DNA from: Mesocentrotus franciscanus
Taxonomy: Eukaryota; Echinodermata; Echinoidea; Camarodonta; Strongylocentrotidae
DNA: 64,000 nucleotides
Direction of reading: 5' to 3'
NCBI GenBank assembly: GCA_037976565.1
Contig: CP137675.1
Coordinates: 23,950,629-24,014,628 of the forward strand
Both the position numbers and the translations under genes were made by a program. The notes under the pieces are model-generated. The model saw nothing but the letters and a program-made list of their open reading frames with translations. It made no database searches and was not told the origin of the DNA. This document shows positions 1 to 57,775 of the stretch, one piece after another (the first letter of the stretch is position 1; every line of letters begins with the position of its first letter).

Positions 1-22
1 TTCTTTTATAATTGCGTTGAAG

Positions 23-9687: not shown

Positions 9688-10223
9688 TTAAAGGTACTAT
9701 GTCCCATTTGCAGGCCAAAAAAAATGAAAAAGGTTAAATTCCAACGGCATTTGAAAGACAATACTAATTTAGAACTTCCCTAAAAAACGGGGCTTGAAAA
9801 TGTCTTTAAGTGGGAAAATAACGACTATTAGTTGTCGAATCGACTTAGGAGCTATAGAGCCAGTAAGTAATAGTCTGATTTTTCAGACCATTGTACCGAA
9901 TGGTCGTACGTTTTATGCTGCGCAAAGATTCAATCAGTTTAATTTTGGCCATTACAAGAAGTGGGTTATTGATGTAGACAAATGCTCATGTACCCTTTAC
10001 AGCTCATTTTATGTATGTTATTACCAAAGAGAAAAAGCCAGTCAGTCACTCAATAGTGTCTGACAGTGAAGTCTAGCAAGTAAACGGGTTTCCTTGCATA
10101 ATTTGAATATTAGGACACTGCTAACGTTTAAATTTCACAGATAGGACATACATGACATATTCATAATTCCTGCAAAGTTCTACAGAATTTGATGTTGGCT
10201 GCAAAGGGACATAGTATCTTTAA
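9688..10223 (+). mobile_element. TTAA-flanked MITE, copy C
   Basis: 536 bp including TTAA at both ends, direct copy of 3822-4358. Both terminal inverted repeats are intact. A single extra T separates its internal reading frame from that of copy B, so the apparent open frames in the family are not conserved coding. Confidence 0.85.
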
Positions 10224-19935: not shown

Positions 19936-20425
19936 CCTCCGCTTAATCAGCGGCCGGCTGAGTCGCTGCGAAATTTCCCCTAAAAAACTGGACAAAAAAA
20001 AAAAAAAAAAAAAAAAATGTGCTCTTCAACCCCCAACTAATTTATGGAGGGGGCATATAATGACGTTTACAATAGAACTTAAGGATATTTTTTTTACAGA
20101 GCAAGTAGGAGAGGTACTAGTTAGGTGTATGCTAGAGTTGCAAATGATCTTTGATAACTTTTTAAATCATAACTTTCATGTCCTTGATCGGATTTTAAAA
20201 ATCAAACTTCAACTGATCTTTCTATAATTTTCTGCTTTTATGAAAGCTAATTTCATTTTAGGGTGGTCTTCCCCTTGAACCCTTCTAACTTTGTGTGGTG
20301 CGTGGTGCGTGTCAATTCTGTGAGTGTTATCATGAAGTGTTTGGAATGGGGTTAGAAGTATAGGGTATGGATAGAACTGAGCTCCATTCTCAGTTGCCAT
20401 AGTATAGTATAGCTGGTTGGAGAGG

Positions 20426-21015
20426 CCAAAGTGGTATGCGTGCTCGTCACAGCACCTCAAAAATGGACCCTAAATGGCGTAAGAAACTAAAATGGACCCC
20501 TAAACGGCGTAAACTCTAATATGGACCCCTAAATGGCGTAAACTCTAAAAACAACCCCATAAATTGTGCAACACACCTACACAGTAATTATTTACATGAA
20601 ACATAATTTATTTCAATTTTGGCCTTTCATAATTAAAATCTTGCAAACAAATATATATCGGAATGCAAGTGCTACGAAACTATTGCAAACCCGGCTGCAA
20701 ACCCACTGCAAACCCAGGTAATTCAAAGTCTCGGCGTAGAGCCCCGCGTAGAGACTAGAAAAATCAAGGGAAATATATCTCTTCGGAGGAACTTATTTTA
20801 AAGAGACATGGGTAGTATACACGCAAATAAATGTCGGCGCTGGCATGGCCGAAAAGTGACCCTAAACGTCGAACTTGAAGTTGAAAAAAGATACCCTAAA
20901 CGTCGAAACTTAGCCTGAAAAGCACCCTTTTTTCTAAAAACGTCGACGACGCCACAAGGCCAAAAATCGACCCTTTTTCGACGTTTTTTTATGACGAGCA
21001 CGCGTACCACTTTGG
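20426..21015. mobile_element. Inverted-repeat element in the left duplication arm
   Basis: The termini are a near-perfect 24-bp inverted repeat beginning CCAAAGTGGTATGCGTGC. Inside are repeats of ATGGACCCCTAAAYGGCGTA and CCTAAACGTCGAA. It interrupts the duplication at the host position GGTTGGAGAGG, the same place where the large palindrome sits in the other arm. Confidence 0.65.
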
Positions 21016-22094
21016 TATGCGAGTGACCCACCCCCGGGGTGGGAGGACCTCGACAGCCCTGAGTTCAATATCGGTTGAAGATAACATGAAGACCCATGGA
21101 TTTGGGTTGTTTTTTTGTAAAGGTTGTATAGCAATGCTTAAATACAACAACAACAACAAAACTGGCAGCGAGTCTATACGACACGAGGGGCTATTTCTCG
21201 AGATTTTTACAAGTTCATCATTTAATAAGCATCTACCCCAAACAAACAAATACAACTCTTTGCGTCGAAATACTTGAATCGTTGAATGAAAACCAAATTA
21301 ATCATCAACAATTGTTGCTATTTTTCTTATACTTCAGTATAGGTTAAATTCTGTGTCCTAAAACTTAGTATCCTTATCCTTTTTCTTTTTTTTAAACAGA
21401 CGTTCGTCGAATTTCTGTGAGTGGGCAATCAACATCACCTACTGTACAACTTAATCCTTTTGCTACAAAACCACATTGATATGTCTCAAATCATATCCAT
21501 TAATGATTTCGTTACGGATCACAAACATACAAGACAATACTATGTCTAAATGTTCTGTTTTTCATCCTGAAGGCGATATGTACAACCTAGTACAACGAGT
21601 TGACACGTCGGTTGCTATCTCTGCATGGCCGATCATTTGCCACAAAGTCGAGAACAGAGCAAGAGTGTGCCCTTTTCAGATAGCCGCAAACCTCGCTCAA
21701 ATCTATCATCACCATGGAGCCTTCAAAAATTACATCTATATAATTAGTACTTTAGCTAACGGTGTTTTTGCTTCTCATTCAATAGCCACTGGCAAGTACA
21801 TCTAGTAGTCAGTAACATGTCGCTAGTAGCCAGTGATGGATGGATGGATAAATTGCTCAATGAATTTTCATAAAAACTCACTGATCTGTTTCTATCATTT
21901 TTCTGCTTTTACTAATAACCTCGCACTAAGACGGACCTCTCAATGAAGTATTTGTCTAAGAATAGTTTTACTTATAGTTTGAATTCCAAAATAAAAATAT
22001 CTAATATTATATCTATGTTATACCATGAATACAGTTCCGTTAAAAATGACAAGTAGACAGTATGAGTATTCTGATGAGGCTACCCTGGGTAAAC

Positions 22095-24318: not shown

Positions 24319-25759
24319 TATATATGATCAAGAATTAATCTAAGTTTTCTCTTTCATGCCCAACGGCAACTATATGTTTGTTCATGCGTTTTACCAGGAA
24401 ACATAACTCGTTTGTGTTAGTTTGAGTTCCAGGCATTTATTTTACAATACCGTTGATTGAATGCTTTCTATTGGATGAAATTGAGAACGGTTTTGTTGCA
24501 AATCTTGTTACAATAATGAATAATTATACGAATTAAACTTTGTAAACATAACATTTTCAATATCCTGCTCTTGCCAAAGAATCCGCTCACTGAATTATGT
24601 ACATGTAGATTTCAAAAGAAAAGAATAAATAAATTAAATTCAATTCAATTCAAATCCAAAAAAATATTTTTTATTTATTTATTTCCACATGTGAGATGGA
24701 TTACCCTTTCAACTTAATTTGGTTTTCAAAGGGGTCCACAAATAACTAATTAAATCAAAATAACTAATAAACACATTTTCAATGAAGCACTATAATATAT
24801 ATCGTTTCTTTATATATAACATTTCTCTAGCTTGAAAATCAGGAATATGTCAAAGATGTTTGAAAGATTTCTACAAATTTCCCAATCGCAATCATGTTGA
24901 GAAATGACAACATTCAGGGAATACGAGACAAAGAGAGCATTATTTCCGATTTCTCTTGGTAGTTCATACGCCGCTCCACTCAAGAAAATATTCAATTTTT
25001 TCGAGGTAAGAACTGCGAACTAAAATAAGAATACTTTAAGCGGTATGTAAAGATAAACTTTCAAACTGTGAAATTCGGTTTTGAATTGAAAAAAAAATCT
25101 AAGACTCCCTCTTAAATTTACCACTGCGAAAATCGATGTAATCTAAGAGAATAAATGATAATGAAATAACCGTTTTGAGTTCAATCTTTCATTTGGTTGA
25201 AATATGCATGTGTGTCGTTTTTGTAATCATGATGATAGTTTTCAGATGTGTGGATACAGTTGTTAATACCACATAATTGTAAAAGTTAATCAATTCTGTT
25301 CAGACAGGAAAGGAACACAAATTCAAAACAGCAGCAAAGGTCATCCCCATATCATACATGTCTAGTATGAATCGTTAACTAATTTTGTGATCTAAATCTC
25401 TTCCTTATCATTTCATGACAGATGGAGGCCTTTGTGACTGCCTTGATATATCGGGTGCAGTGATTTATTTAGTACATAATGGACCGCCCGCCCCCCGTTT
25501 AAAGCCCCTAAAATTAATTCCAGGATATGCCCTGCTCTGTCCATCTTAATGAAAATAATGTTGTTGTGCTGTATCCCAAATATTTCTCTTTTTAAAGATT
25601 AAAATCTAAATGTTATCCAATCAATCAAGAAAATAAAGCCTAATTCTATCTCGAAACCTTTATCTAGACATGGGTGATTCAAGGTACACAAGGCTAGGTA
25701 TTGAAGTTAAAAAGGTTGGAAAGAGTTCAAAGCTATGCAAGTGGGTATGGGTGAGAGGG

Positions 25760-25805
<46 letters not shown>

Positions 25806-25905
25806 GAGAGAGAGAGATAGCGAGAGAGACAGAGAGAAAGAGAGACAGAAAGACAAAGAATAAGACACAGAGAGAGAGAGAGAGAGAGACAGAGGGGAGG
25901 GAATA
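25760..25905. repeat. (GA)n tract, counterpart of (CT)n at 29430-29710
   Basis: Mostly GAGA with AAAGA interruptions. Its mirror-position partner in the other arm is CT-rich, as expected for an inverted duplication. Long Ser/Leu or Arg/Glu open frames here are not genes. Confidence 0.85.
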
Positions 25906-26814
25906 GGGGGATAGAGATAATGAGGAAGCGGTAAAGATTCTAGAGGAGAAAAATAAAAGGGAAAGAAGGTAGAGACATAGATAGAGAGAGTAGATAAATG
26001 AGCAGACATACAGAGAGACAGAGAGACAGAAAGAGAAAGAATAGCGGTATATTAGGAAAAGAAACAATGAGAGACATTTTATCCAGCAGTATCAACAATG
26101 ACCCATATACAGCCCTGTGTAATTATCATTTTTGTCAATTCATTGTTGTTCGCTTTTTCATTTCGCACCCATGCCTAGCTTGTCTAGAGAAATTATCTTA
26201 TACCCTATATTACTACTATCTCTCTCCTTCGCTTTACTTCTCGCTTTATCTCTCTCTGACCCCCTCTCTCTCTCTCTCTCTCTAACCATCTATCCACCTA
26301 TCTATCTCTTTATCTATCTACCTATCTATCTTTTTTTCCCCCCTCTATTTCTCTCTCTCCCACTTTTAGCCGTAACGTGTCTATTTTTTTTTATTCCTCT
26401 TTTTGTCTCAGTCTAAAGTGTGTATTCTGTTCCGTTTTGTTTTTCTGCGCATGTATATACCTACACGCAACAAGCCTACCTTTTAAGTAGGTTCACTTTT
26501 TTATGATTACTTGTAAATATTGTGATTATATTTGATTCTGTTTCAATAAAACACATTTTAAAAAAATATTTAAAAAATATAAAAATTAGGTTCACTTTTC
26601 ATTTCCTTTTTTTAATGATTTACAGAACATTCTTTCATCTTATTAATTACTATGATTCAGGATTATTTACTTCCATACATGCATTATCTTAAGAAATGTC
26701 AATGTTTTGTCAAATGTACTTGTTTGTTCAAGGAGAGAAAAAATGTTTAGATAACATTTCTAAGAAGACAGTTAAAGAGAGAAAGAAAGAAATGTTATGG
26801 ATACAAATAGATAT

Positions 26815-27460
26815 ATATATAGAGAGAGAGAGAGAGATAGAAGGGGGAGGGAGATAAATACATAATAAGAGAGAGAGGGAAGAGAGAGAAAGAGATAGAG
26901 AGAGAGGGGGGGGGAAGAGATACAAATAAATAATAAGAGAGAGAGAGGGTGAGAGAGAAAGAGAGACAGATAGAAAGAGTGAAGGGGAAGGGAGACAAAT
27001 ACATAATAAGAGAAAGAGAGGGAAGAGAGAGATAGAGAGAAAGAAGGGGAAGGGAGACAAATACATAATAAGAGAAAGAGAGGGAAGAGAGAGAGATAGA
27101 GAGAAAGAAGTGGGAAGGGAGACAAATACATAATGAGAGGGAGGAAAGAAAGAGGGAGGGGAGAGATGCGAAGGGGGGATAGGGAGACAAATTTTGAGAG
27201 AGAGGGGGTGGGGGGAGAAAGAGAAGGGGAGAGAGACAATAGTAGAGAGACGGAGAGAAAGAGAGAGATCGAGAGAGATTGAGAGGGGGAACAGACAAAT
27301 TATGATTGAGAGAGAGAGGAAAGAGAAAGAGACAGACAGACACAGAGAGAGAGAGAGTGTGTGTGGGAGAGAGGGATTGAGGAGAAAGGAGGAACAGGGA
27401 GATAAATACTTAATGAGAGAGAATGAAGAGAGGGAGAGAGAGAAAGAGAATTAGAGGGGT
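26815..27460. repeat. GA-rich minisatellite
   Basis: A unit of about 65 bp containing GGGAGACAAATACATAATAA is repeated at least five times between 26845 and 27140, then degrades into GA-rich sequence. It yields long low-complexity frames on the minus strand that should be ignored. Confidence 0.8.
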
Positions 27461-27779
27461 GGGAAGAAACGCTATAGTTATGACACGAGGAAGATTTTTT
27501 TAATTGCTTTTCAAAGATTTATTGTGATGTGAATAAAATTGGTTCTTAATTCCACCTTCATTATTATTTAATCGGTTTATCAATCATCATACCAAAGTGG
27601 TATGATACGGAAAAAAAGAGCTCACCTCATTTATTCGGCCAATGACCTAATATATTCCTTATATTACATGTATTATTCGGTTATCATGTAATTTTTCAAT
27701 TTGCGACATATTACTTTTTAATATAATTTTAAATAAAATATTATCTTTTGACATGCATGTAACTAGTAACATAGTGAGG

Positions 27780-28165
27780 CGAAGTTCACACATTCATAAT
27801 TTCTAAGGTTCGATTTTTCCGAACGTTCGTCGTTCCAAAGGTTTATAATTCTTTTTGGGGTTAAAATACCGAAAATGAAATAGTGTTTGTTATTCCGAAA
27901 ATTGGAACATAATTCATGATTCCAAAAATGATATAGGGTTCATGATTAGGGAAATGAGCAAGGGTTCATAATTCAGAAAATGAAAAGAGTGCATTAATAC
28001 GAAGGTTCATAAATCAAATAAATAAATACCACTCTGTGTCGTTTTCGGAATTACGACCCTTCGGAATACTGAACCTCATTTCATTTTGGGAATTATGAAC
28101 CCTATTTCATTTCCGGTACGGCAAATTTATCTTTCGGAATTATACACTTTTGGAAAACGATAACC
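27780..28165. repeat. Iterated 'GGTTCATAATTCCGAAAATGA' type motif
   Basis: About ten diverged occurrences, in both orientations, of a 20-25 bp motif around TTCATAATTCCGAAA. A second cluster is at 52680-52930. It may be two copies of one foldback-like element. Confidence 0.55.
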
Positions 28166-28203
28166 CCTCCCATTCCTCCACCCCCAGTTTACCATCAACA
28201 CAT

Positions 28204-28736
28204 TAAAGGGACTTGGTAACATTGTTCAGATGAGAGGAAATGGTGCTAAGGTAGTGACTTTAATGCTAGATGTACAATTAAAGATAATCTGAAAGTTTGA
28301 GTGAAAACAGACCATTATTATTGATACAAATTGGGAAAAACTGATCTGATCGATTCCTTAATTCTCCCAACTTATATTATTACAATTTAATTACATTTTA
28401 GGTAAATGTAAATCGTCACAAAGCAATGAATTGGCTCTATATATACCATTCCAGACATTTAAGTGTTGACAGATTTTTAAAAGCCTGTCTTATGTCTTAT
28501 TTTCGTGGAAAAACGGTTCGGAAAATTCAAAAATGGTTGGGAGAATTTACTATAAGAGGGTGTCCCACAGTGACGCCTTCAAAGAAAACCATAAATATCT
28601 TTGTGGTTTGAAAAAAATTTCCGGATTGTTTGCATGTTAGAGGGTGAGTATAGCAAAAGGAAAATAATAAGTAACATTTTATACAAAAATTACGCAGTTT
28701 TTTGTCAACCTTCAACAATGTTACCGAGTTACTTTA
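28204..28736. mobile_element. MITE at the centre of the old inverted duplication
   Basis: Inverted termini TAAAGGGACTTGGTAACATT and TAAAGTAACTCGGTAACATT (opposite strand). It begins at TTAA and ends at TTTA, so a TA or TTAA target is likely. Its ends resemble the TTAAAGGTACT family seen at 381, 3822 and 9688. No gene is inside. Confidence 0.6.
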
Positions 28737-28739
28737 CAG

Positions 28740-29160
28740 TAACAGAGCGGATCACTGATGAAGACACTTTTCGGATGACTGTTATTACACCTCAGTCATC
28801 ATCACCTGAAGCAGGAGGAAATATCATGGGGTACCTAAAGTTCTCGGACATTTAAAATAAAAATTAGGGATGTGATATTCGATCCACTCATATTCATACA
28901 TAAAGTTGTTTAGATTAATTAGTACCAAATGAACGTCCAAATTTTAGACTACAAATGGCTACAACTAGAGAATTTATCGTCAAAAGAATTCGATATCACG
29001 ATCTCAAAATTCGATGTCGGATCGGAGTGCGCTTCAAAGAAGATGTCATAAAAGCAACCAGTCCTTAATTCGCGCAGGAGAGTTTTCAAGTGATCCAAGA
29101 AAGCGATTCATCAAAGGTAAGGTAAATGCATGAATTCCAGGTAAAAATATCATTTATTTC
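28740..29160. other. Spacer region near the duplication centre, nothing recognised
   Basis: No gene or repeat boundary seen. The arms of the old inverted duplication meet on either side of 27610-29160. Confidence 0.5.
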
Positions 29161-29281
29161 TTTTCGTATCATACCACTTCGGTATGATGATTGATAAACC
29201 GATTAAATATGAAGGTCGAATTGAAAATCAATTGTGTACACATCACAATAAATCTTTGGAAAGCAACTAGAAAAGCTTCCT

Positions 29282-29413
29282 GGGCCCTGTCTTACAAAGA
29301 GTTGCGATTAATCCAAATCAATCGCAAGTCCTCCAATCAATCGCAAGTTGGCAGTATCATATCTATTATGTACATAGTTGCGATTGATATCAACTCTTTG
29401 TAAGACGAGGCCC
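29282..29413. mobile_element. Short MITE with GGGCCC...TTACAAAGAGTT ends, copy 2
   Basis: 132 bp. Same terminal motif as 12528-12686 and the same TGCGATTGATATCAA interior, with one half shortened. Confidence 0.75.
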
Positions 29414-29661
29414 AGGTGTCACAACTCAATCGTTTTCCCCTCTCTCTTGTCTTTCTCTCTATCTCTTTGTATCCATTTTTATGTGCCGCTCTCTTTCTTC
29501 TCTCTTTCTTCTCTATGTGTGTCTGCCCATCTTTCTATCTATATCTCTATCAATATCTTTCCCTCTTAAACTTGTATTTTTCTCCTCTAGAATCTTTACC
29601 TCTTCCTCTTTCAACCCCTTTCCGATCCCCTCCCCCCCCTCTCTCTCTCTCTGTCTCTCTG

Positions 29662-29693
<32 letters not shown>

Positions 29694-30899
29694 TCTCTCC
29701 GTCCCCTCTCGCCCATACACACTTTGAACTTTGAACTTTTCCCAACCTTTTTAACGTCAATACTTAGCCTTGTGTACCTTAAATCATCCATGTCTAGATA
29801 AAGGTTTAGAGATAGAATTCGGATTTGTTCCATTCATCAATTGGAGAAAATGTATTCACCACTTTCATAAAAACATACAAAGTCAAAGAATACAATAAAA
29901 TGTTTCTTGCAAACATAGATAAGCCAATAAAATGGAAAAATACACAATCTCAGAAAAACGAAATAATTGAGATGCAACACACCAACATTTTTATTTAGAT
30001 GAACAGAGCAGAGACGTATCCAAAAAATTAAGGGGCTTTAAACGGGGGGGGGGGCTCCATCCTGTACTGTATAAATCACTGCTATTGATAAACAATAGCA
30101 GTCACAAACGCGTCTTTCTGTTATTATATGAAAAGGAAGGGATATAAATCACAAAAATAGTGATCGATTTATAATAGACATTATTGTATGATAATTATAG
30201 GGATGGTCTTTGCTGCTGCTTTCAATTTGTGATCATTTCCTATCTAAATAAGTTTTACCAAATTCTACGACCATCATGACCATGCGATAATAACAACTGT
30301 ATCCACACATTTAGTAAATAGATAAATGACATACACATATATATTCCAACCAAATGACAGATTGAACACAAAACGGTGATTTCATCATCATTTATTTTCT
30401 TAGATTGCATCAAACTTCGAGGATAACATCGATTTTCTCAGTGGTAAATTTTAGAGGTAGTCTTAAACTACTTTCTTTCTTTTTGTTAAAGGCAAAACCG
30501 AATTTTGCAGTTTGAATGTTTACCTTTAAAATAGTGCTTGGTTTAATCCTATTTTCTATTAATTTTTACCTCGAAAAAAGGTGAAGATTTTCCTTGAGCA
30601 GCGTCTGAACACCCAAGAGAAATCGAAAATGATGTTCTCTTTATCTCGTCTTCCCTGAATGTCGTCATTCCTCAACATGCTTGCGATTGAGAAATTTGTA
30701 GAAATCTTACGATTACCTACGACATATTCTTTAGTTTCAAGATTGCCAAGAAATCCCTCTTTATATAGTGCTTCATTTAAAATGTGTCGATATAATAATC
30801 AAATTGATTGAATTAGTTATTTGATTTGAATTGACTTGAATTAAGTTTATTTTCTCCTTTTGTTTCGAAATCTATAATATGTACATATTTCAGTGAAGA

Positions 30900-31970
30900 G
30901 ATTCATTGTCAAGGGCTGGTCATCGAGGCTTTTATTATCATAAAGTTGAATTCGTACTATTATTTATTATTGTTCCAATATTTGCAAAAAACCGTTCTCA
31001 ATATCATCAATGTAATAGAAAGCAATTCAATCGACGGCATTGTAAGATAAGTGCCTGGAATTCACACAATCACAAACGAGTAATATATTTCCTGCAAATA
31101 CGCATGAGAAAAAAATATTGTCGCCGTCGGGCAGAAGAAGAAGAAAACTTCGATTAATTCTCAATCGTATTGAGGTTCTTCAATATACCATTCTTTACGT
31201 TCATCTCTTGAGAGGTACGCATGTAAATACATTTATTGTCGTTGTCCAGTTAAGAAATTGGATGCAGAATTTATACAAATTAGAAAATACATACCAATTA
31301 TGATTCAGCAAAATAGTAAAGAAAACTATTTAATGATACATAAGATGATGTTTCATCTGGAAAAAAAAAAGTTTATCACCTTTTCCAGAATTGGTTTCAT
31401 GGTATAACATAGATACGATATTAGAAATTTTTTATTTTTGAATTCAAACTAAGTGTAACTATGCTTAAAAAATACTTAACTGAGAAGTCAGACCTAGAGT
31501 GAATTTATAGTAAAAGCAGAAAAATGATAGAAACAGAACAATGAGTTTTGAGGAAAATCCATTGAAAAAATGCAAATTGGCAACATTATGATGTAAGGCT
31601 AAACCACCTCTCCCATATGGGTTGTCCTGAAAAAAAAATCTTGATTGTTCATGAAGGAATATATCTCCTTTTTTTCCATGAAGGGGTTGCGTTAAACAAT
31701 GTGTGTAATGATTCTATAGGGCAAAGGTATAATCACTAATCTGCTTTCAAGAAAATAGGAATTTTATTTATGTTCGCTAGGTTAAATATAGAGTTGCCAA
31801 TTTGTGATTGAACGATCGCTACTTTTTAAAAATAAAATGCCTTTTAAATTTATCTTTCGTTTTTTTCCTCAAACTGTCATAACCTGATTGACCTGTTTTC
31901 CTGCTTTCATTAAATCGAACTGCATATCAGCGTGATTATTTTCCTTTAATGGTATATTTATAGATTCAAT
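30900..31970. other. No gene recognised
   Basis: AT-rich stretch of the right duplication arm with no supported coding or element ends. Confidence 0.45.
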
Positions 31971-34470: not shown

Positions 34471-35116
34471 AAATGATTTGATAAAAGCTTTATGTAAACA
34501 TATTGTAAAGGCATGTTCATGAGGAAGTGTATTCTACTGACACTATCCCAGATATACTTATAGTGCTATCCGTTGCTCACAATGTCCCGATGTGCCGACA
34601 GCAATGTCCCACAATACATCACAAACTGCATATCGCGCTTGATGTAAAATGTAAAATACACAATGCCTTTAAATGATTTGAAAACAACTATTATGTAACA
34701 TATTTAAAGTAAAGTTCAAACGGCACTGCAGAGGATGGATTTTTTTTTAGAATCTCGAAACATTTAGCACCTTTTTTTCTTCAAATCGATGTGTAATCAT
34801 TATGAAGAAGAATATCTATTTGTTTACACGATTACAGGTCAGTTTGATGGATTCCCCTCAGAAGCGATGATTGATTGTGATATTCGGCATTTTATCAGAG
34901 GTATTAACAGAGATAGTAAATATATTTTGTCAGAAGACACACTCACATATGACCATGCACAGGATTATCGGAGTAGCCCTCGTGTCGTAGACTCGCTGCC
35001 AGTTTATTTTGTTTTTGTATTTAAGCATTGCTATACTACCTTTAACAAAAAATCCCAAATCCATGGGTCTTCATGTTATCTTCAGCCGATATTTAACTCA
35101 GGCCTATCGAGCCCCC

Positions 35117-35218
35117 AGTAGTTATGACAGTGAGTATGGGGACGGCCATAGGTTTTGTACACAAAAATTTTCGTACTTATACTATTTCTAATTGACTCGT
35201 GTACATTAACTTTGACAT
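35117..35218. repeat. Orphan copy of the palindrome terminus
   Basis: 102 bp identical to 35589-35690 (direct) and to the inverted right terminus at 43510-43611. It is separated from the rest of the element by 370 bp of host-derived sequence. Confidence 0.9.
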
Positions 35219-35588
35219 CCACTCTTTCTTTTATTTTTCTTGGGGGTTAATGAGAGCATAGATCTAATTTATAGAGGGAGCATAATTATATTGACGTATA
35301 GAATAGAAATTAAGTTTTTTTTAATAGAGCAAGTAGGAGAGGTACTAGTGAGGTGTATGCTATAGTTGCATATTCGTGTTTGAACTTTGATAACTTTAAA
35401 AATTATAACTTTCATGTCCTTGATCGGATGTTTTCCTCACACTTTAACTGAACCCTTCTAACTTTGTGTGGTGCGTGTCAATTCTGTGAGTGTTGTCATG
35501 AAGTGTTTGGAAAGGGGGTTAGAAGTATAGGGTATGGATAAAAGCTCCATTCTCGGTTGCCAAAGTATACAGCTGGTTGGAGAGGGGG
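35219..35588. repeat. Inverted copy of host flank 43612-43980
   Basis: This block is the reverse complement of the right flank of the palindrome. The right flank is in the orientation expected from the old duplication (partner 20050-20425), so the left copy is the extra one. It ends abruptly at CCACTCTTTC on both sides. Confidence 0.85.
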
Positions 35589-35689
35589 AGTAGTTATGAC
35601 AGTGAGTATGGGGACGGCCATAGGTTTTGTACACAAAAATTTTCGTACTTATACTATTTCTAATTGACTCGTGTACATTAACTTTGACA

Positions 35690-36480
35690 TAGTCTATTTT
35701 TGACAAAAAACGGACTTATAACACGCGTGTCTATGGGGTTTTGACTTTTGAATTTAGATAGGGATTTTTCATTTTGGACTTGTAAATTTTTTCGATAAAA
35801 CCTGAATTATAATACATGTGTCTATGGGATTTTGACTTTATGAATTTTACATAGAGATTTTTCATTATCTTCTGGACTTGTAAATTTTTTGAGAAAAAAA
35901 GTGAGTTTTAACACGCGTATCTATGGGATTTTGACTTTATGAATTTTACTCGTGTGTTTTTATGGGAAGTTTTGACGTTTTGGATATTGGATAGGTATTT
36001 TCTTGTAGGACTTGTAACAAGTGAAGTGTGTCTATGGAATTTTGACTCTTTGACTTTCTATACTTTGTGTTTGACTTTCTGAGGAATGGTTACAACGCCG
36101 TTGTAGGTTGGACCAATATCTATTGTTCGTTTGTATTTAACCCTACTACGAACCTCGCATAGCAACGCGCGTAACCGTATTGTTGTCTATTTGTAAAGGG
36201 TAGGCCTATTGATTTGTGTAGGCCTATAAGTCTATAGTGTCTTTTGTATATGAATTACCTCTTTTCAGCAATAGAACCGTCGTTTCTTATTGATCGTGCA
36301 TTGACTTTATGACCCTCTCACAAGACTTTCGACAACTGAAGTTTGTTTTACTCCGACCCGTTCGTATCGGCGAGTTCTTTGGTGACTATGTGAATTTCAC
36401 ATAGAGATTTCTCATTATCCTCTGGACTGTTAATTTTTTCGAGGAAAAAGTGAGTTAATAAAGGTGTGTCTGTAAGTCAC
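35690..36480. repeat. Subterminal ~100-bp repeats of the palindrome, left arm
   Basis: Three or more diverged units, each with TCTATGGGATTTTGACTTT, ATAGAGATTTTTCATTAT and GGACTTGTAAATTTTTTCGA. The right arm (42660-43510) has one more unit. Confidence 0.75.
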
Positions 36481-36529
36481 TTTTGATTCACACGTCAACA
36501 AATCAGAATTTTATCCTTTATTTTTTATG

Positions 36530-36960
36530 TGTTTTCAACTCCTCTTTCATACATTTCACCATTAAGACTCAATATCATACTTTCTCCATTTCGACTCTAT
36601 GACTCTGTAACTTCATTTTCATACATTTCAACATAAAGATTCATTATCACACTTTCATACTTTCAACAATAAGACTCAATATCATACTTTCTACATTTCG
36701 ACTCTATGACTCTGTAACTTCATTTTCATACATTTCAACATAAAGACTCATTATCACACTTTCATACTTTCAACAATAAGACTCAATACCATACTTGCAT
36801 CATAAAGACTCCTTATCACACTTTCATACATTTCACCAATAAGACTCATTATCATACTTACACCATTTCGACTCTCTGAGACCCTGTGACTTCAATTTCA
36901 TACATTTCACCATTAAGACTCATTATCATACTTTCACCATTTCGACTCTGTGACTCTATG
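36530..36960. repeat. TTTCATACATTTCAACATAA-type array, left arm
   Basis: Short repeat array alternating ATAAGACTCAATATCATACT and ATTTCGACTCTATGACTCTG units, mirrored at 42160-42590. A downstream block at 36985-37250 repeats 36075-36385, duplicating the start of a short ORF. Confidence 0.8.
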
Positions 36961-37179
36961 ACTTTCTTTCTTTACTTTGTGTTTGACTTTCTGAGGAATG
37001 TTTACAACGTCGTTGGAGGTTGGACCAATATCTATTGTTCGTTTGTATTTAACCCTACTACGATACTCGACCGACAACACCAGGCTATTTTAAAGGTTAT
37101 TGATCTAGTGTCTTTTGTATTTGAATTACCTCTTTTCAGTAATAGTACCGTTGTTTCTTATTGATCGTGCATTGGCTTT

Positions 37180-37374
37180 ATGACCCTCTCACAAGACTTT
37201 CGACAACTGAAGTTTGTTTTACTCCGACCCGTTCATATCGACGAGTTCTTTGCACTTTCCCACAACTGGCACTTTGATACATGCATAGCTGTGTTTGAAC
37301 TCTCTCAAAACATCATTCTGGACTTACTTTGTATCTTGTACGACTATTCCGACGTAGAATACACACATCCATGA
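37180..37374 (+). CDS. Short ORF of the palindromic element, left arm (64 aa, unknown)
   Basis: Starts ATG ACC in CTTTATGACC and ends at TGA 37372, with AATAAA at 37375 overlapping the end. The product has a FRQLKFVLLRPVHIDEFF segment and a C-terminal YDYSDVEYTHP. The same frame is open upstream from 36886, interrupted by one TGA at 37162, so it could be a last exon or a short protein. A diverged copy of its first 24 codons exists at 36308, where it runs into a stop. No family recognised. The poly(A) signal directly at the stop and the convergent gene make a real transcript end plausible. Confidence 0.45.
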   Translation: MTLSQDFRQLKFVLLRPVHIDEFFALSHNWHFDTCIAVFELSQNIILDLLCILYDYSDVEYTHP

Positions 37375-37380
37375 AATAAA
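37375..37380 (+). terminator. Poly(A) signal of the short ORF, left arm
   Basis: AATAAA right after the stop codon. Opposite-strand hexamers for the convergent zinc-finger gene are at 37407 and 37418, so the two transcripts would overlap at their 3' ends. Confidence 0.55.
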
Positions 37381-37767
37381 ACACTATGTACTACATAATT
37401 TTTCACTTTATTTTAATTTTATTTGTTTACGTTTCAATGCAGACAACTTCATGCAAAACAGATTTGAATACAAAGATAACAATTACAATTTAGTGATGTT
37501 ACAAGAGAACAGAGATAAAATATACAAAACATGTTTAACTCGAGAAATAGAACCCGAGTCATATTACTATATTATTTCACCGTAAATATGTAAAAACTGT
37601 TAACATTAATGTACAGCGTGCGTAATGTATAGGTATAAATATCTTAAAAACAAAGCAAGTTTAAACTCAGAAAGGTCGATTGATGTACATGTTGAAATAG
37701 AGTAAATGTGTCATCTATATTATTAGGATTGTCTACGAAATATTCTTTGTCAAGATGATGTCAAGAC

Positions 37768-38508
37768 TTAGTTGTCGCTTCCATCTGTACCCTCCGTTTC
37801 TTCTTCACTATCGTCGTCATTCTCATTCTCGCTGTCGCTTTCATCTGCACCCTCCGTTTCTTCTTCGCTATCATCGTCATCGTCATTTTCATCCTGATAC
37901 TGGAATAAGCCCTCGAATCGTGTACCGTGTCTTGCTAAGACTCTTTTCACGGCTTTCCGAAGATTCATACCATTTTCTACTTTTTCCGTGAGATCAGACA
38001 TAATTTCATGATTGATGTCAGCTCGTGCAAGGTACACGTTCTGCTGCAAGAACTTGGAGTAAAGATCGAAAAAGGTACGTTTGACGACCCATAGAACTTT
38101 CACGTGGGCCTTTTCTTTAGCTTCTTCTTCGTCCATTCCCTCGGAGATATATTTTTGGTATTTTTCATCCCTGAGGTCCTCGGTGTTTGTCATGGACTGT
38201 TCTAACCATTCTTGATAAGCAAGGTTGTCCTCAAGTTCTTCCATGTTAGGTATCTCTGACTTTGACGATTCATCCTCTCCTTCACTTTCGGAATCACTTG
38301 TTTCAGCATCATCGCTAGATTCTACAACAGCTCTTTGCTTCTTAGAGGGTGGTTCGGAGAAATTATCTTCACTGGTTTCTTCACCAACGATGGAATCTTC
38401 ATTCTCGTATACATTCGTATCAGGATGTACATTCTGTTCGTGTCTCTGCATGTCGAACTTGCGACTATAGGTCTTATCGCATAGTGAACAACCGTAACGG
38501 TCGGACAT
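37768..38508 (-). CDS. C2H2 zinc-finger/acidic protein of the palindromic element, left arm (246 aa)
   Basis: Identical in translation to the copy at 40609-41349. Residues 1-30 hold one C2H2 finger (CSLCDKTYSRKFDMQRHEQNVH). About 45-90 is Ser/Glu/Asp-rich with a PSKKQR basic patch. About 90-205 is a folded-looking helical region containing YQEWLEQ, EEEAKEKAHVKVLWVVKR and GMNLRKAVKRVLARHGTRFE. The C-terminus is a repeated Asp/Glu tract (SEEETEG twice). Inference: a nuclear DNA-binding protein, perhaps a regulator or maintenance factor of the element. I have a loose memory of lineage-expanded C2H2 proteins with a similar central helical region in marine invertebrates; this is unchecked. The intact frame in both arms suggests youth or selection. 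Poly(A) hexamers follow at 37418 and 37407 (minus). Confidence 0.85.
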   Translation of the reverse strand: MSDRYGCSLCDKTYSRKFDMQRHEQNVHPDTNVYENEDSIVGEETSEDNFSEPPSKKQRAVVESSDDAETSDSESEGEDESSKSEIPNMEELEDNLAYQEWLEQSMTNTEDLRDEKYQKYISEGMDEEEAKEKAHVKVLWVVKRTFFDLYSKFLQQNVYLARADINHEIMSDLTEKVENGMNLRKAVKRVLARHGTRFEGLFQYQDENDDDDDSEEETEGADESDSENENDDDSEEETEGTDGSDN

Positions 38509-38589
38509 ATCGAAAGTATTCGTGTTGACTCGATGATGTTTAGCTCGGAATTGGTCAGAAGAGATTGAATCGTTATAATTATATAGTGT

Positions 38590-38775
38590 AACGCCGTAAA
38601 TCCGTAGTTTATCGCCGTAAATCCGTAGTTTAACGCCGTAACATCCCGTAAATCCGTAGTTTAACGCCGCAACACCCCGTAAATCCGCAGTTTAACGCCG
38701 TAACACCCCGTAACGCCGTAATTTAACGCCGTAACACCCCGTAACGCCGTAATTTAATACCGTAACGGCGTATCG
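38590..38775. repeat. CGCCGTAA iteron array upstream of the zinc-finger gene, left arm
   Basis: About eight repeats of CGCCGTAA with ATCCGTAGTTTAA or CACCCCGTAA spacers, between the zinc-finger start and the inner ORF. Mirrored at 40345-40535. The position fits a promoter or binding-site array. Confidence 0.85.
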
Positions 38776-38996
38776 ACACCGCTGACGGATCATTCCTCTT
38801 TATGCTTCATCGACAATTTTTATAGAGCACCCACTCTCTTTGAGATCTACCACTCTATTATTAACTCCGTAACATCGTCTTTAACCCCACTACGTCTCTA
38901 CTACACTCCTATCAATCTCTTCTGACCAATCCCTCTCTTCTACCCACTTTAATTCTTGTTCGATCACCGGGTCTTCTTCTTCTTCTTCATCATCAT

Positions 38997-39254
38997 TTAT
39001 TCATTCGATATAACTAAGTTGATTGTAGTCTGTATTTTGTTCCAATATGTTATAAATTATAATATGTAATAGGGATACTAGTACTGCAGAACAAAATATA
39101 GAGGTTATAACAATATTAATTCATTCAATATAATTGAGATTACTGTATTTTGTACTCTGTAATTGGTTTCAATATGTTATATATTACAATTTGTATGAAT
39201 TAATATTATTTATTGAGTGAATACAATAAAGAATATTACAAAACAAAAAATCAT
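38997..39254. mobile_element. 258-bp insertion present only in the left arm
   Basis: The right arm reads straight through CATCATCATCCTGG; the left arm has this extra block flanked by ATCAT on both sides. Inside are two diverged copies of TTCATTCRATATAA...CAATATGTTATA. It interrupts the inner acidic ORF of the left arm. Confidence 0.75.
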
Positions 39255-39429
39255 CCTGGTAAAACAAATGCAGACGCAAAGTAAATGTAAAAAACAAAAC
39301 AAAAATCAAAACAAAAACAACGAAAATACATGAAATGCAGTGTGAAGGGAAAATTAAAAAAAAATCGAGAAAATTAATATGTATCATAGATTTTAAGGTA
39401 TTACATCATTATGAGTAGACATGTCTTTA

Positions 39430-39595
39430 TTACCGTTGCTATAAACAAATATGTAAAATGTCTTTATTCCCGTTGCTATAAACAAATATGTAAAATGTCT
39501 TTATTCCCGTTGCTATAAACAAATATGTAAAATGCCTTTATTCCCGTTGCTATAAACAAATATGTAAAATGCCTTTATTCCCGTTGCTCTGGATT
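39430..39595. repeat. Tandem repeats at the palindrome centre
   Basis: Five copies of a roughly 37-bp unit containing TCCCGTTGCTATAAACAAAT on the left side; the right side (39892-39950) has about two. Left and right therefore differ in copy number at the hairpin turn. Confidence 0.85.
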
Positions 39596-39891
39596 TTACC
39601 TTAGTTATATCATTGGTTGACTTTTACCACATGACCAATATGATCTAATAGATATTTGTTTCTAAATATAGGATGATTATTTACATCACTTTAACTAAGA
39701 AATGGTGGGATCTAATCAAATCTCTGGATTTTGCCTTAGTTATATCATTGGTTGACTTTTACCACATGACCGATAAGATCTAATCGATCTTTTGTTTCCC
39801 TTTGGAGGCTTACATTTCATCCGAGGACCAATTGTCATCATCTTCAACCGTGATCTTTAGACCTTGAGTGAGAGCGATCTTTACAACATCG
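39596..39891. other. Single-copy spacer of the palindrome
   Basis: Not part of the inverted arms. It contains two direct copies, about 125 bp apart, of a block with TTAGTTATATCATTGGTTGA and TTTTACCACATGACC. No coding seen. Confidence 0.8.
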
Positions 39892-40119
39892 TTTTATAGC
39901 AACGGGAATAAAGACATTTTACATATTTGTTTATAGCAACGGTAATAAAGACATGTCTACTCATAATGATGTAATACCTTAAAATCTATGATACATATTA
40001 ATTTTCTCGATTTTTTTTTAATTTTCCCTTCACGCTGCATTTCATGTATTTTCGTTGTTTTTGTTTTGATTTTTGTTTTGTTTTTTACATTTACTTTGCG
40101 TCTGCATTTGTTTTACCAG

Positions 40120-40227
40120 GATGATGATGAAGAAGAAGAAGAAGACCCGGTGATCGAACAAGAATTAAAGTGGGTAGAAGAGAGGGATTGGTCAGAAGAG
40201 ATTGATAGGAGTGTAGTAGAGACGTAG
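40120..40227 (+). CDS. Acidic C-terminal exon or short ORF of the palindromic element, right arm
   Basis: A good acceptor TTTGTTTTACCAG ends at 40119-40120. The frame then encodes a DDD/EEEEE run, VIEQELKWVEERDWSEEIDR and stops at 40225. Upstream the same frame to 39988 is hydrophobic, AT-rich and probably intronic. It could be a spliced exon; the partner exon is not found. The left-arm equivalent is broken by the 258-bp insertion. Confidence 0.35.
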   Translation, partial: DDDEEEEEDPVIEQELKWVEERDWSEEIDRSVVET

Positions 40228-40344
40228 TGGGGTTAAAGACGATGTTACGGAGTTAATAATAGAGTGGTAGATCTCAAAAAGAGTGGGTGCTCTATAAAAA
40301 TTGTCGATGAAGCATAAAGATGAATGATCCGTCAGCGGTGTCGA

Positions 40345-40535
40345 TACGCCGTTACGGTATTAAATTACGGCGTTACGGGGTGTTACGGCGTTAAATTACG
40401 GCGTTACGGGGTGTTACGGCGTTAAACTGCGGATTTACGGGGTGTTGCGGCGTTAAACTACGGATTTACGGGATGTTACGGCGTTAAACTACGGATTTAC
40501 GGCGATAAACTACGGATTTACGGCGTTACACTATA
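40345..40535. repeat. CGCCGTAA iteron array, right arm
   Basis: Inverted copy of 38590-38775, ending about 75 bp before the zinc-finger start codon at 40609. Confidence 0.85.
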
Positions 40536-40608
40536 TAATTATAACGATTCAATCTCTTCTGACCAATTCCGAGCTAAACATCATCGAGTCAACACGAATA
40601 CTTTCGAT

Positions 40609-41349
40609 ATGTCCGACCGTTACGGTTGTTCACTATGCGATAAGACCTATAGTCGCAAGTTCGACATGCAGAGACACGAACAGAATGTACATCCTGATAC
40701 GAATGTATACGAGAATGAAGATTCCATCGTTGGTGAAGAAACCAGTGAAGATAATTTCTCCGAACCACCCTCTAAGAAGCAAAGAGCTGTTGTAGAATCT
40801 AGCGATGATGCTGAAACAAGTGATTCCGAAAGTGAAGGAGAGGATGAATCGTCAAAGTCAGAGATACCTAACATGGAAGAACTTGAGGACAACCTTGCTT
40901 ATCAAGAATGGTTAGAACAGTCCATGACAAACACCGAGGACCTCAGGGATGAAAAATACCAAAAATATATCTCCGAGGGAATGGACGAAGAAGAAGCTAA
41001 AGAAAAGGCCCACGTGAAAGTTCTATGGGTCGTCAAACGTACCTTTTTCGATCTTTACTCCAAGTTCTTGCAGCAGAACGTGTACCTTGCACGAGCTGAC
41101 ATCAATCATGAAATTATGTCTGATCTCACGGAAAAAGTAGAAAATGGTATGAATCTTCGGAAAGCCGTGAAAAGAGTCTTAGCAAGACACGGTACACGAT
41201 TCGAGGGCTTATTCCAGTATCAGGATGAAAATGACGATGACGATGATAGCGAAGAAGAAACGGAGGGTGCAGATGAAAGCGACAGCGAGAATGAGAATGA
41301 CGACGATAGTGAAGAAGAAACGGAGGGTACAGATGGAAGCGACAACTAA
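40609..41349 (+). CDS. C2H2 zinc-finger/acidic protein of the palindromic element, right arm (246 aa)
   Basis: Start ATG in GATATGTCC, stop TAA at 41347. Amino-acid sequence identical to the left-arm gene. One N-terminal C2H2 finger (Cys-X2-Cys-X12-His-X4-His spacing), acidic linker, a helical domain of about 115 residues, and an acidic repeat tail. AATAAA signals follow at 41694 and 41704. It converges on the short ORF at 41743-41937 (minus). Host transcription is likely, since no polymerase is visible in the element. Function unproven. Confidence 0.85.
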   Translation: MSDRYGCSLCDKTYSRKFDMQRHEQNVHPDTNVYENEDSIVGEETSEDNFSEPPSKKQRAVVESSDDAETSDSESEGEDESSKSEIPNMEELEDNLAYQEWLEQSMTNTEDLRDEKYQKYISEGMDEEEAKEKAHVKVLWVVKRTFFDLYSKFLQQNVYLARADINHEIMSDLTEKVENGMNLRKAVKRVLARHGTRFEGLFQYQDENDDDDDSEEETEGADESDSENENDDDSEEETEGTDGSDN

Positions 41350-41742
41350 GTCTTGACATCATCTTGACAAAGAATATTTCGTAGACAATCCTAATAATAT
41401 AGATGACACATTTACTCTATTTCAACATGTACATCAATCGACCTTTCTGAGTTTAAACTTGCTTTGTTTTTAAGATATTTATACCTATACATTACGCACG
41501 CTGTACATTAATGTTAACAGTTTTTACATATTTACGGTGAAATAATATAGTAATATGACTCGGGTTCTATTTCTCGAGTTAAACATGTTTTGTATATTTT
41601 ATCTCTGTTCTCTTGTAACATCACTAAATTGTAATTGTTATCTTTGTATTCAAATCTGTTTTGCATGAAGTTGTCTGCATTGAAACGTAAACAAATAAAA
41701 TTAAAATAAAGTGAAAAATTATGTAGTACATAGTGTTTTATT

Positions 41743-41937
41743 TCATGGATGTGTGTATTCTACGTCGGAATAGTCGTACAAGATACAAAGTAAGTCCAGA
41801 ATGATGTTTTGAGAGAGTTCAAACACAGCTATGCATGTATCAAAGTGCCAGTTGTGGGAAAGTGCAAAGAACTCGTCGATATGAACGGGTCGGAGTAAAA
41901 CAAACTTCAGTTGTCGAAAGTCTTGTGAGAGGGTCAT
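41743..41937 (-). CDS. Short ORF of the palindromic element, right arm (64 aa, unknown)
   Basis: Inverted duplicate of 37180-37374 with the same product. AATAAA on the minus strand overlaps the stop. The upstream in-frame extension to 42231 is again interrupted by one TGA. Confidence 0.45.
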   Translation of the reverse strand: MTLSQDFRQLKFVLLRPVHIDEFFALSHNWHFDTCIAVFELSQNIILDLLCILYDYSDVEYTHP

Positions 41938-43611
41938 AAAGCCAATGCACGATCAATAAGAAACAACGGTACTATTACTGAAAAGAGGTAATTCAAATAC
42001 AAAAGACACTAGATCAATAACCTTTAAAATAGCCTGGTGTTGTCGGTCGAGTATCGTAGTAGGGTTAAATACAAACGAACAATAGATATTGGTCCAACCT
42101 CCAACGACGTTGTAAACATTCCTCAGAAAGTCAAACACAAAGTAAAGAAAGAAAGTCATAGAGTCACAGAGTCGAAATGGTGAAAGTATGATAATGAGTC
42201 TTAATGGTGAAATGTATGAAATTGAAGTCACAGGGTCTCAGAGAGTCGAAATGGTGTAAGTATGATAATGAGTCTTATTGGTGAAATGTATGAAAGTGTG
42301 ATAAGGAGTCTTTATGATGCAAGTATGGTATTGAGTCTTATTGTTGAAAGTATGAAAGTGTGATAATGAGTCTTTATGTTGAAATGTATGAAAATGAAGT
42401 TACAGAGTCATAGAGTCGAAATGTAGAAAGTATGATATTGAGTCTTATTGTTGAAAGTATGAAAGTGTGATAATGAATCTTTATGTTGAAATGTATGAAA
42501 ATGAAGTTACAGAGTCATAGAGTCGAAATGGAGAAAGTATGATATTGAGTCTTAATGGTGAAATGTATGAAAGAGGAGTTGAAAACACATAAAAATAAAG
42601 GATAAAATTCTGATTTGTTGACGTGTGAATCAAAAGTGACTTACAGACACACCTTTATTAACTCACTTTTTCCTCGAAAAATTAACAGTCCAGAGGATAA
42701 TGAGAAATCTCTATGTGAAATTCACATAGTCACCAAAGAACTCGCCGATACGAACGGGTCGGAGTAAAACAAACTTCAGTTGTCGAAAGTCTTGTGAGAG
42801 GGTCATAAAGTCAATGCACGATCAATAAGAAACGACGGTTCTATTGCTGAAAAGAGGTAATTCATATACAAAAGACACTATAGACTTATAGGCCTACACA
42901 AATCAATAGGCCTACCCTTTACAAATAGACAACAATACGGTTACGCGCGTTGCTATGCGAGGTTCGTAGTAGGGTTAAATACAAACGAACAATAGATATT
43001 GGTCCAACCTACAACGGCGTTGTAACCATTCCTCAGAAAGTCAAACACAAAGTATAGAAAGTCAAAGAGTCAAAATTCCATAGACACACTTCACTTGTTA
43101 CAAGTCCTACAAGAAAATACCTATCCAATATCCAAAACGTCAAAACTTCCCATAAAAACACACGAGTAAAATTCATAAAGTCAAAATCCCATAGATACGC
43201 GTGTTAAAACTCTTTTTTTTTCTCAAAAATTTACAAGTCCAGAAGATAATGAAAAAATCTCTATGTAAAATTCATAAAGTCAAAATCCCATAGACACATG
43301 TATTATAATTCAGGTTTTATCGAAAAAATTTACAAGTCCAAAATGACAAATCCCTATCTAAATTCAAAAAGACAAAACCCCATAGACAACCGTGTTATAA
43401 GTCACTTTCGAAAAAATTTACAAGTCAAAATGACAAATCCCTATCTAAATTCAAAAGTCAAAACCCCATAGACACGCGTGTTATAAGTCCGTTTTTTGTC
43501 AAAAATAGACTATGTCAAAGTTAATGTACACGAGTCAATTAGAAATAGTATAAGTACGAAAATTTTTGTGTACAAAACCTATGGCCGTCCCCATACTCAC
43601 TGTCATAACTA

Positions 43612-43980
43612 CCCCCTCTCCAACCAGCTGTATACTTTGGCAACCGAGAATGGAGCTTTTTATCCATACCCTATACTTCTAACCCCCTTTCCAAACACTT
43701 CATGACAACACTCACAGAATTGACACGCACCACACAAAGTTAGAAGGGTTCAGTTAAAGTGTGAGGAAAACATCCGATCAAGGACATGAAAGTTATAATT
43801 TTTAAAGTTATCAAAGTTCAAACACGAATATGCAACTATAGCATACACCTCACTAGTACCTCTCCTACTTGCTCTATTAAAAAAACTTAATTTCTATTCT
43901 ATACGTCAATATAATTATGCTCCTCTATAAATTAGATCTATGCTCTCATTAACCCCCAAGAAAAATAAAAGAAAGAGTGG
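43612..43980. repeat. Host flank of the palindrome, original copy
   Basis: Partner of 20050-20425 in the old duplication and, as an extra inverted copy, of 35219-35588. It contains CAACCAGCTGTATACTTTGG and CTCACAGAATTGACACGCAC. Confidence 0.85.
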
Positions 43981-43984
43981 AAGA

Positions 43985-55762: not shown

Positions 55763-57743
55763 CATCGTTATTATTATTATTATTACTATTTCAAGAAATG
55801 AAAATAGAATATATTATTTTCACTGGATTGTAATGAAGGTAGGTTTACCTGTACATAAATGTCTTCTATAAGCAAGCCATACAATGTCCAAGCAAGTGAA
55901 GTCAGAAACATGGCGCTCGCCATAAACGCAGAAAACGATTCACTGTTCCGTTTTCTAATGGCGTTCCCCTGCAATTTAGGAATATGAAGCGTGACGACAC
56001 AAATCATTAATAATGAGATTAATATTAACTGAAACAATATTGAGATTTATGTTTAGATGTTTCCTCATTTCGAACCCATGTAGTCTCATTAAAAGAACAT
56101 GCAGGATCAAATTCCAAAGACCTTGTTTAGATCAGTTTTCTAATGGCGTTCTTCTGCAATTTAAGATTGTGCAACATGACGATACAAGTCATTAATAATG
56201 AGATCGATACACTGTATTAACTTAATACCGTGAAACAAACGTGTGTTTCATTCATATGTAATCACATTTCGAAACCATACAATTTTATTTGAAAACCATG
56301 AAAGATCGAATTCGAAAGACCGAGTTTGTTATGGCGGTCTCCTGCAATTTAAGAATCTGAAGCGTGATGATACAAACAAAGCATCGATAATGAGGTTAAT
56401 ATTAACTTAATAGCGTTGAACAAAGTTGTGTGTATTGTGTAATCTTATAAGAAAACCACGCAAGATCAAACATGACCACGTTTTATATGCTATGAACTTA
56501 AGCGGTATTGACAACTTCTCTGTAATCTCAAGGGCCAACTATAAAAGCAAGATCAATTACATCAAATAGAGACAGATTCAGACGGCTGAAGGGCTCACGC
56601 CACCCTGTTACACCCACAAATGTAATAACGCCCACAAATGTAATAACACTTTACCCACAAATGTAATAACACCCACAAATGTAATAACACTTTACCCACA
56701 AATGTAATAATTTCACCCACAAATGTAATTACCACTTTACCCACAAATGTAATAATTTTGGTAAGTGGTTGTTACACCCACAAATGTAATAACGCCCACA
56801 AATGTAACAACGCCCACAAATGTAATAACACTTTACCCACAAATGTAATAATTTTGAATCACCCACAAATGTAATAATGACTTTACCCACAAATGTAATA
56901 AATTTGAAGGGATATTTTGTCGGATTTGTTCAAAACTAAAACCCTGTAATAAAGCATGGGTATAGCGCGCAGTCTTTACTCCAGACCCGGTTATTTCAAA
57001 AATTTAAAAAACAGACCCCATAATCATTTTCCTGTGGAATAACATAACAATCGAGCGTAGTCTTTCCTCCAGACCCGGTCATTTCAAAAATAAAAACAAT
57101 AAAAAACAAAACAAAAATTCAAATCTAAGACCCAACAATCCTCCAAATTAAGACCCGGTAATAAAGTATGGGATTAGAGCGTAGTCTTTACTTCAGACTC
57201 GGTTATTTAAAAAAAAAAAAAATCTTCAAACTAAGACCTCCCCATCTTATTCCTGTGGAATAACATGGGTATAGAGCGTAGTCTTTCCACCAGACCCGGT
57301 TATTTCAAAAGAAAAAGAAATTTAAACAAATCTTCGAAACTAAGTCCCACCATCTTATTCCTCTTTTTCATTTAAAAATAAATTACATTATTACATATGT
57401 GGATACAACACGTCACAAATAAATGATTGGTCGGCGGTCACACGAACTGACAAATCAGTCAAAATGGTCCATATATATAACACACAGAGGAGGGACCGAT
57501 TCGATGGTTCGTTGACCGTCGACGATTTGTTAATATGTAAAAATTCTAACGCCCACAAATATCCTGGAATTCAATGTTCGTAGAAAAAAAAGTAATCGAA
57601 TAAGTGACCTTAAATGTATTTAAATATTGTATATATTATATCATTTTTTTGAAATGACCGGGTCTGGAAGAACAACTATGCTCTAAACCCATGCTTTGTT
57701 ACAGGATCTTAGTTTGGAAGATGGTGGGTCTTAATTTTAAAGT

Positions 57744-57775
<32 letters not shown>

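Follow-up and report, generated by a model that had tools for sequence, protein, structure and literature searches.

A near-perfect palindrome carrying two identical zinc-finger genes in the genome of the sea urchin Mesocentrotus franciscanus

The window analyzed here is a 64,000-nucleotide stretch of the Mesocentrotus franciscanus genome (assembly GCA_037976565.1, contig CP137675.1, positions 23,950,629 to 24,014,628 of the forward strand), and positions are counted from its first letter. It contains an insertion with two long inverted arms, each bearing the same intact gene for a 246-amino-acid protein with a C2H2 zinc finger and an acidic stretch, as a first-pass annotation made from the sequence alone had described. 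Coordinates of the features are collected in Table 1.

Layout of the palindrome and its host flanks

The arms were found by two independent tools. When the region is compared with itself using BLAST, 35713-38996 matches 43403-40121 at 99.6% identity over 3286 columns. The inverted repeat extends outward from there (35218-35949 against 43981-43265, 94.5%) and inward (a 233-nt block, 39250-39482 against 40125-39893). The second tool reports a longest inverted-repeat block of 2475 nt; as a control, 13 kb of sequence was shuffled 20 times with mononucleotide composition kept, and exact inverted matches reached at most 22 nt. The near-perfect palindrome of the first-pass annotation stands as far as its long arms go, but its bounds do not: 35117-43611 is not symmetrical, and the symmetrical part, 35219-43981, contains host DNA.

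Read from the left, the host flank is followed by CCCCC and a 102-bp element end. Next come 370 bp of host DNA and then end, arm, 0.3-kb centre, arm and end; CCCCC and host flank close the locus on the right. When the two sides are aligned globally (35219-39482 with 39893-43981 reverse-complemented), they show 6 substitutions and 11 indels. All 6 substitutions fall in the arms, over about 3.6 kb aligned; the 370-bp flank has none, and the gene region shows no difference of any kind. Two of the indels are large: an 87-bp tandem unit is absent from the left side, and a 258-bp segment occurs in the left arm only. The latter is probably a later insertion, possibly a small one with an ATCAT duplication. 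Tandem and iteron-like arrays and subterminal repeats are present in both arms, as had been noticed, though the 37-bp repeats differ in number.

One terminus occurs in three copies, at the outer left (35117), the inner left (35589) and the right end (43611). The outer left end and the right end have 101 bp in common at 100% identity, so that terminal inverted repeats are present. The inner left copy is preceded by GGGGG. The right copy runs ...CTGTCATAACTA into CCCCC, and relative to the inner left copy two bases are missing at the joint between end and flank. Mapping of the three termini bears out the CCCCC it saw on both sides (35112-35116 and 43612-43616) as an apparent 5-bp target duplication; it lies in a C-run, the left 6-mer being GCCCCC and the right one CCCCCT.

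The left and right flanks are the native neighbours of the insertion, because the host repeat has another copy at 20037-21193 that contains both in colinear order, split there by a small element with CCAAAGTGGTA ends. Given these native flanks, the piece between the outer and inner left termini duplicates the right neighbour in reverse orientation, and since this copy lies inside the inverted repeat, the palindrome includes host DNA. The idea that the ends of the palindrome are the ends of the element was abandoned once the inverted copy of the host flank had been found inside it. The insert in the other host-repeat copy measures about 0.6 kb (20426-21015) and has inverted ends CCAAAGTGGTAYGCGTGCTCGTCA.

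Table 1. Features of the palindromic insertion and its flanks, in window coordinates
Feature	Position	Strand	Remarks
Left host flank	34974..35111	-	Dispersed host repeat; 89% to 21193-21049 of the window
Target duplication, left copy	35112..35116		CCCCC (apparent)
Outer element terminus	35117..35218	+	102 bp, starts AGTAGTTATGACAG; passes abruptly into inverted host DNA, sharing 1 base at the joint
Inverted copy of right host flank	35219..35588	+	0 substitutions, four 1-base indels (one at edge), plus 2 bp at inner junction
Left arm	35589..39588	+	Terminus AGTAGTTATG, subterminal repeats, gene, iteron-like repeats, 37-bp repeats
Subterminal tandem array	36544..36943		Left arm; periods 35/72/107; right-arm counterpart 42251-42573
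Gene for 246-amino-acid C2H2/acidic/helical protein, copy 1	37768..38508	-	Open reading frame list, homology searches
21- and 31-bp direct repeats, iteron-like	38584..38766		Upstream of gene copy 1
Left-arm-only segment	38992..39249		258 bp; from global alignment
37-bp direct repeats	39421..39588		4.5 copies in left arm; between one and two in right arm
Single-copy centre	39589..39892		304 bp; contains two 71-bp direct repeats; fold-back loop in preferred model
Possible C-terminal end of truncated upstream gene	39810..39893	-	27 codons and stop, open to central junction
Right arm	39893..43611	+	Ends ...CATAACTA before CCCCC; lacks two bases of ACTACT
Possible second truncated coding end	40117..40227	+	36 codons and stop, acidic, after splice-acceptor-like CAG
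21- and 31-bp direct repeats, iteron-like	40351..40533		Upstream of gene copy 2
Possible TATA box TATATAAT	40532..40539	+	70 bp 5' of ATG of gene copy 2; read from sequence
Gene for 246-amino-acid protein, copy 2	40609..41349	+	Identical to copy 1
Two AATAAA poly(A) signals	41694..41710	+	Downstream of gene copy 2; read from sequence
Right host flank	43612..43981		Begins CCCCC (43612-43616); source of left-side copy; 43615-43935 matches 20425-20037

The 246-amino-acid protein and its family

A first search with the protein (P0001) returned 23 relatives. A profile search, which scored the 7981 candidates with the most shared words, found 60 at E <= 0.001; for two of these (P0060 and P0061) the alignment spans just 10% of the query. 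Lytechinus pictus is the sole organism named among the relatives (three entries), and the sources of the others are contigs, including one Tara and one JGI source. The accession series of one relative, XP_011665040.1, is presumably that of Strongylocentrotus purpuratus. The helical domain is doubled in some relatives (P0025, P0026). Around P0060 there is a remote sister group of 16 matches, P0060 included, and the two groups are homologous over the finger, the acidic linker and the helical domain (hhalign probability 99.7, E 1.1e-25, 189 columns). Family alignments were prepared from 17 of the 24 sequences then at hand (A2), from 39 of 61 (A3, which excludes fragments, chimeric or doubled models and near-duplicates) and from 8 of 61 (A6, seven of them also in A3); those of the sister group hold 14 of its 16 matches (A4) and 4 of these 14 (A5).

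The protein has a C2H2 finger. The zf-C2H2 family is its only Pfam match, at 18.4 bits against a cut-off of 25.2, and is matched at E 0.01 in 35 of the 39 members scanned, the other families hit being finger families or scattered weak matches; the first residues of the structural model align with solved zinc fingers. AlphaFold gives a confident finger and helices (residues 96-202), with a block-mean predicted local distance difference test score (pLDDT) of at least 90 up to residue 200 and a pLDDT mostly above 90 in the helical domain. The model for the P0060 group has a similar helix order at lower confidence. No informative match to the helical domain was found in Pfam, and none stands out from Foldseek searches of the PDB and of viral models or from VIA-align runs on 287 chains, a lack of structural matches that does not show a new fold.

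We regard the protein as probably an element-encoded nuclear DNA-binding protein made of one C2H2 finger, an acidic linker and a helical domain. The single finger with its long acidic stretch, the iteron-like rows before the gene and the TATA-like box between them suggest a DNA-binding regulator of its own element, which may act on the element's repeats, for example in autoregulation or replication. A literature search over titles and the starts of abstracts surfaced no account of this gene family, which does not prove its absence from print. A short convergent open reading frame had also been listed. It encodes 92 amino acids from a GTG start within AT-rich repeats and matches no Pfam family; as a gene we reject it, since it is repeat-derived and unmatched, and it is probably a chance reading frame.

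Affinity of the element and origin of the palindrome

The commonest end motif of vertebrate Mavericks is 5'-(AGT)2//(ACT)2-3'; their target duplications are 6 bp long, and a role in jumping-back during protein-primed replication has been proposed for the end repeat (PMC8097293). A Strongylocentrotus purpuratus Polinton sequence is listed among the alignment abbreviations of PMC4028283. Here, two of the three termini start with AGTAGT (35117 and 35589). Outside triplet arrays the window has 33 occurrences of AGTAGT or ACTACT when both strands are counted and those in the element itself are included; a given 6-mer is expected about once per 4000 positions. Because several families were considered, the motif is only moderate evidence for a Maverick affinity. 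The element resembles Mavericks also in its inverted terminal repeats and short target duplication, and judged from these ends it may be a piece or a dependant of an element of that type. The earlier suggestion of a virus-like replicon or its non-autonomous partner is supported in part: the insertion has termini of its own, what looks like a target duplication, an uncharacterised gene and iteron-like arrays, with no recognizable gene for replication or integration, and a fragment or non-autonomous partner of such a replicon would fit the Maverick-type AGTAGT end. A compact palindrome as the native architecture is not supported.

The host flank within the inverted repeat and a coding-like stretch open to the central junction speak for a fold-back event. 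Our preferred reading, to which we give a probability of roughly 0.45, is that an element with Maverick/Polinton-type ends inserted and that a local fold-back inverted duplication then made the palindrome. The element would have gone into a dispersed host repeat at a C-rich position, giving the 5-bp CCCCC duplication. After a later break near its left end, synthesis starting in the right flank would have moved left across the element's right end, folded back and returned out to the flank, whereby about 4 kb of right-hand element and 370 bp of host flank would have been copied in inverted orientation and joined to the surviving 102 bp of left terminus. Whatever lay between the break and the copied part would have been lost, and each arm would represent one end of a longer parent element.

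This single event is preferred because it explains together the palindrome, the two gene copies, the duplicated host flank and the cut-off centre, and the substitution counts of flank and arm are compatible with one age for both. The palindrome is probably a local accident and not the normal shape of the element. The claim that it is the element's own compact architecture is hard to maintain when the inverted repeat runs through 370 bp of host flank and the centre may hold truncated coding ends. Both of the central fragments are coding-like in composition, and they weakly suggest that each arm is the end of something longer. Fold-back inverted duplications of human chromosomes have the same arrangement of inverted copies around a single-copy spacer (PMC3907307), but the present case is short-range and reconnects with the opposite side of the element it arose from.

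Several points weigh against this reading. The spacer of 304 bp is shorter than that of any of the 21 sequenced human cases, which range from 766 to 70,466 bp (PMC3907307). With so few substitutions, joint doubling of arms and flank cannot be proven, and gene conversion between the arms would erase differences in age. The central fragments are short and match nothing convincing in Pfam: that at 39810-39893 has a single match under the cut-off (ROQ_II, E 0.061) and that at 40117-40227 has none. As to the Maverick affinity, the right end (...AACTA, then CCCCC) lacks two bases of the motif, and the duplication is 5 bp instead of 6, a length blurred by the C-run. No defining Maverick gene is present. 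As the annotation had stated, no transposase, integrase, polymerase or capsid gene is recognizable, and neither is one for an ATPase or protease; the longest open reading frame is that of 246 codons, with a zinc finger alone by Pfam (scanned on the 246- and 92-amino-acid frames). We therefore do not file the element as a Maverick. The C2H2 gene in turn is not mentioned for Mavericks in the excerpts of PMC8097293 and PMC4028283. A longer relative with a replication or integration enzyme, which the annotation proposed to look for, was not confirmed: searches for a second copy or for relatives of the element or protein gave no confirmed case in IMG/VR (profiles A2, A4, A5 and A6, P0060 and the 18-base terminus) or in GTDB contigs (profiles A2 and A4), collections that are viral and prokaryotic, may lack records from the genome of the window itself or a near one and thus say little about animal genomes.

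The rival that fares best, although we consider it unlikely, is an element that is natively palindromic, either a fold-back transposon or else a Maverick-like virus whose defective snapback genome replicates and integrates by means of enzymes supplied in trans. It would account for the likeness of the three element ends, the outer left end being equal to the right end over 101 bp. A palindrome present at insertion, however, leaves the inverted right flank on the left side to a second event, such as a break in the left terminus repaired by outward copying from the right terminus; two rare events are then required instead of one, and host DNA lies inside the palindrome. The centre, too, seems to consist of truncated coding ends and not of a dedicated loop, which counts weakly. 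A mark of fold-back transposons is long inverted ends confined to the element, and here the inverted repeat extends 370 bp into host DNA. Members of this class (TU of sea urchin, FB, Galileo and Tetris) do share with the insertion long repeat-rich inverted ends and a short centre, and the ends of Tetris contain internal tandem repeats (PMC4079207). They differ in that the present inverted repeat takes in host flank, that intact genes lie in the arms, and that the target duplication is 5 bp, outside the 8-10 bp of Tetris (PMC4079207). Snapback subgenomes, known for adeno-associated virus (AAV; PMC8235507), likewise double one genome end as a palindrome, but they belong to a parvovirus, and the doubled segment here includes host DNA.

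A bolder version of native palindromy, which we think very improbable, is a palindromic satellite derived by snapback from the end of a Maverick-like virus, with two protein-primed origins and a doubled regulatory gene, which a helper Maverick would replicate and integrate in trans and which would spread in this form in sea urchins. If true, it would be a defective-interfering-like Maverick form preserved in a genome. In the literature search described above, and with the same reservation as to print, no palindromic or defective-interfering-like Maverick surfaced.

Quite unlikely as well is membership of some other DDE superfamily, one whose transposons duplicate 5 bp of target and carry long terminal inverted repeats, with AGTAGT arising by chance. 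The duplication seen is indeed 5 bp, and such duplications are 4 or 5 bp for Ginger2 and 3-6 bp for long terminal repeat elements (PMC10045372). A second element in the window, whose inverted ends are built from repeats and which may have a C-rich duplication of 5 bp, also indicates that a mechanism of this kind may be active here. Against it, the motif of protein-primed ends is matched exactly at two of the three termini. Rehavkus/Mutator was dropped for its 9-bp duplication, compared with 5 bp here, and IS481EU for its TG..CA ends. An assembly or chimeric-read artefact, with a fold-back read or mis-joined haplotypes giving the inverted join, is very doubtful: outside the two long segments the sides do differ mostly by 1-base indels, many of them in homopolymers, as is typical of long-read error, but the 258-bp and 87-bp differences between arms are not expected from one folded molecule, and the joint at the outer terminus shares one base only, unlike a repeat-graph jump.

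The lasting interest of the locus lies in an uncharacterised gene family, with its single C2H2 finger, acidic linker and helical domain, and in the link to Maverick-type termini. With one member tied to an element with such ends, there is a concrete handle on the function of these genes. If palindromic copies turn out to be common, they would be defective, helper-dependent Maverick genomes in animals; if they do not, the locus would be a clean case of a repeat-rich insertion hit by fold-back duplication.

Other features of the window

The second element mentioned above, at 56606-58290, is fold-back-like and about 1.7 kb long. Its inverted ends TGTTACACCC consist of 18-23-bp CCCACAAATGTAATAA repeats, its inner inverted arms are about 91% alike, and CACCC possibly stands on both sides.

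On the minus strand at 18346-19203 are two open reading frames resembling those of a tyrosine-recombinase (Crypton-like) element. The first has a weak Phage_integrase match (E 0.0033, under the Pfam cut-off) and the second has none.

Three SRCR domains were found at 1-4955, in three of the 10 reading frames scanned and with E from 2e-32 to 3.6e-32; they are probably exons of a scavenger-receptor gene. Together with the named relatives of the 246-amino-acid protein, these domains fit a sea urchin.

A large and older inverted repeat spans 24331-31161, where 24331-24669 pairs with 31161-30811 (79%) and 24831-25593 with 30741-29954 (75%). Finally, a dispersed repeat of about 540 bp occurs at 387-925, 3821-4356 and 9685-10221, the first copy being inverted relative to the other two (95% and 98%).

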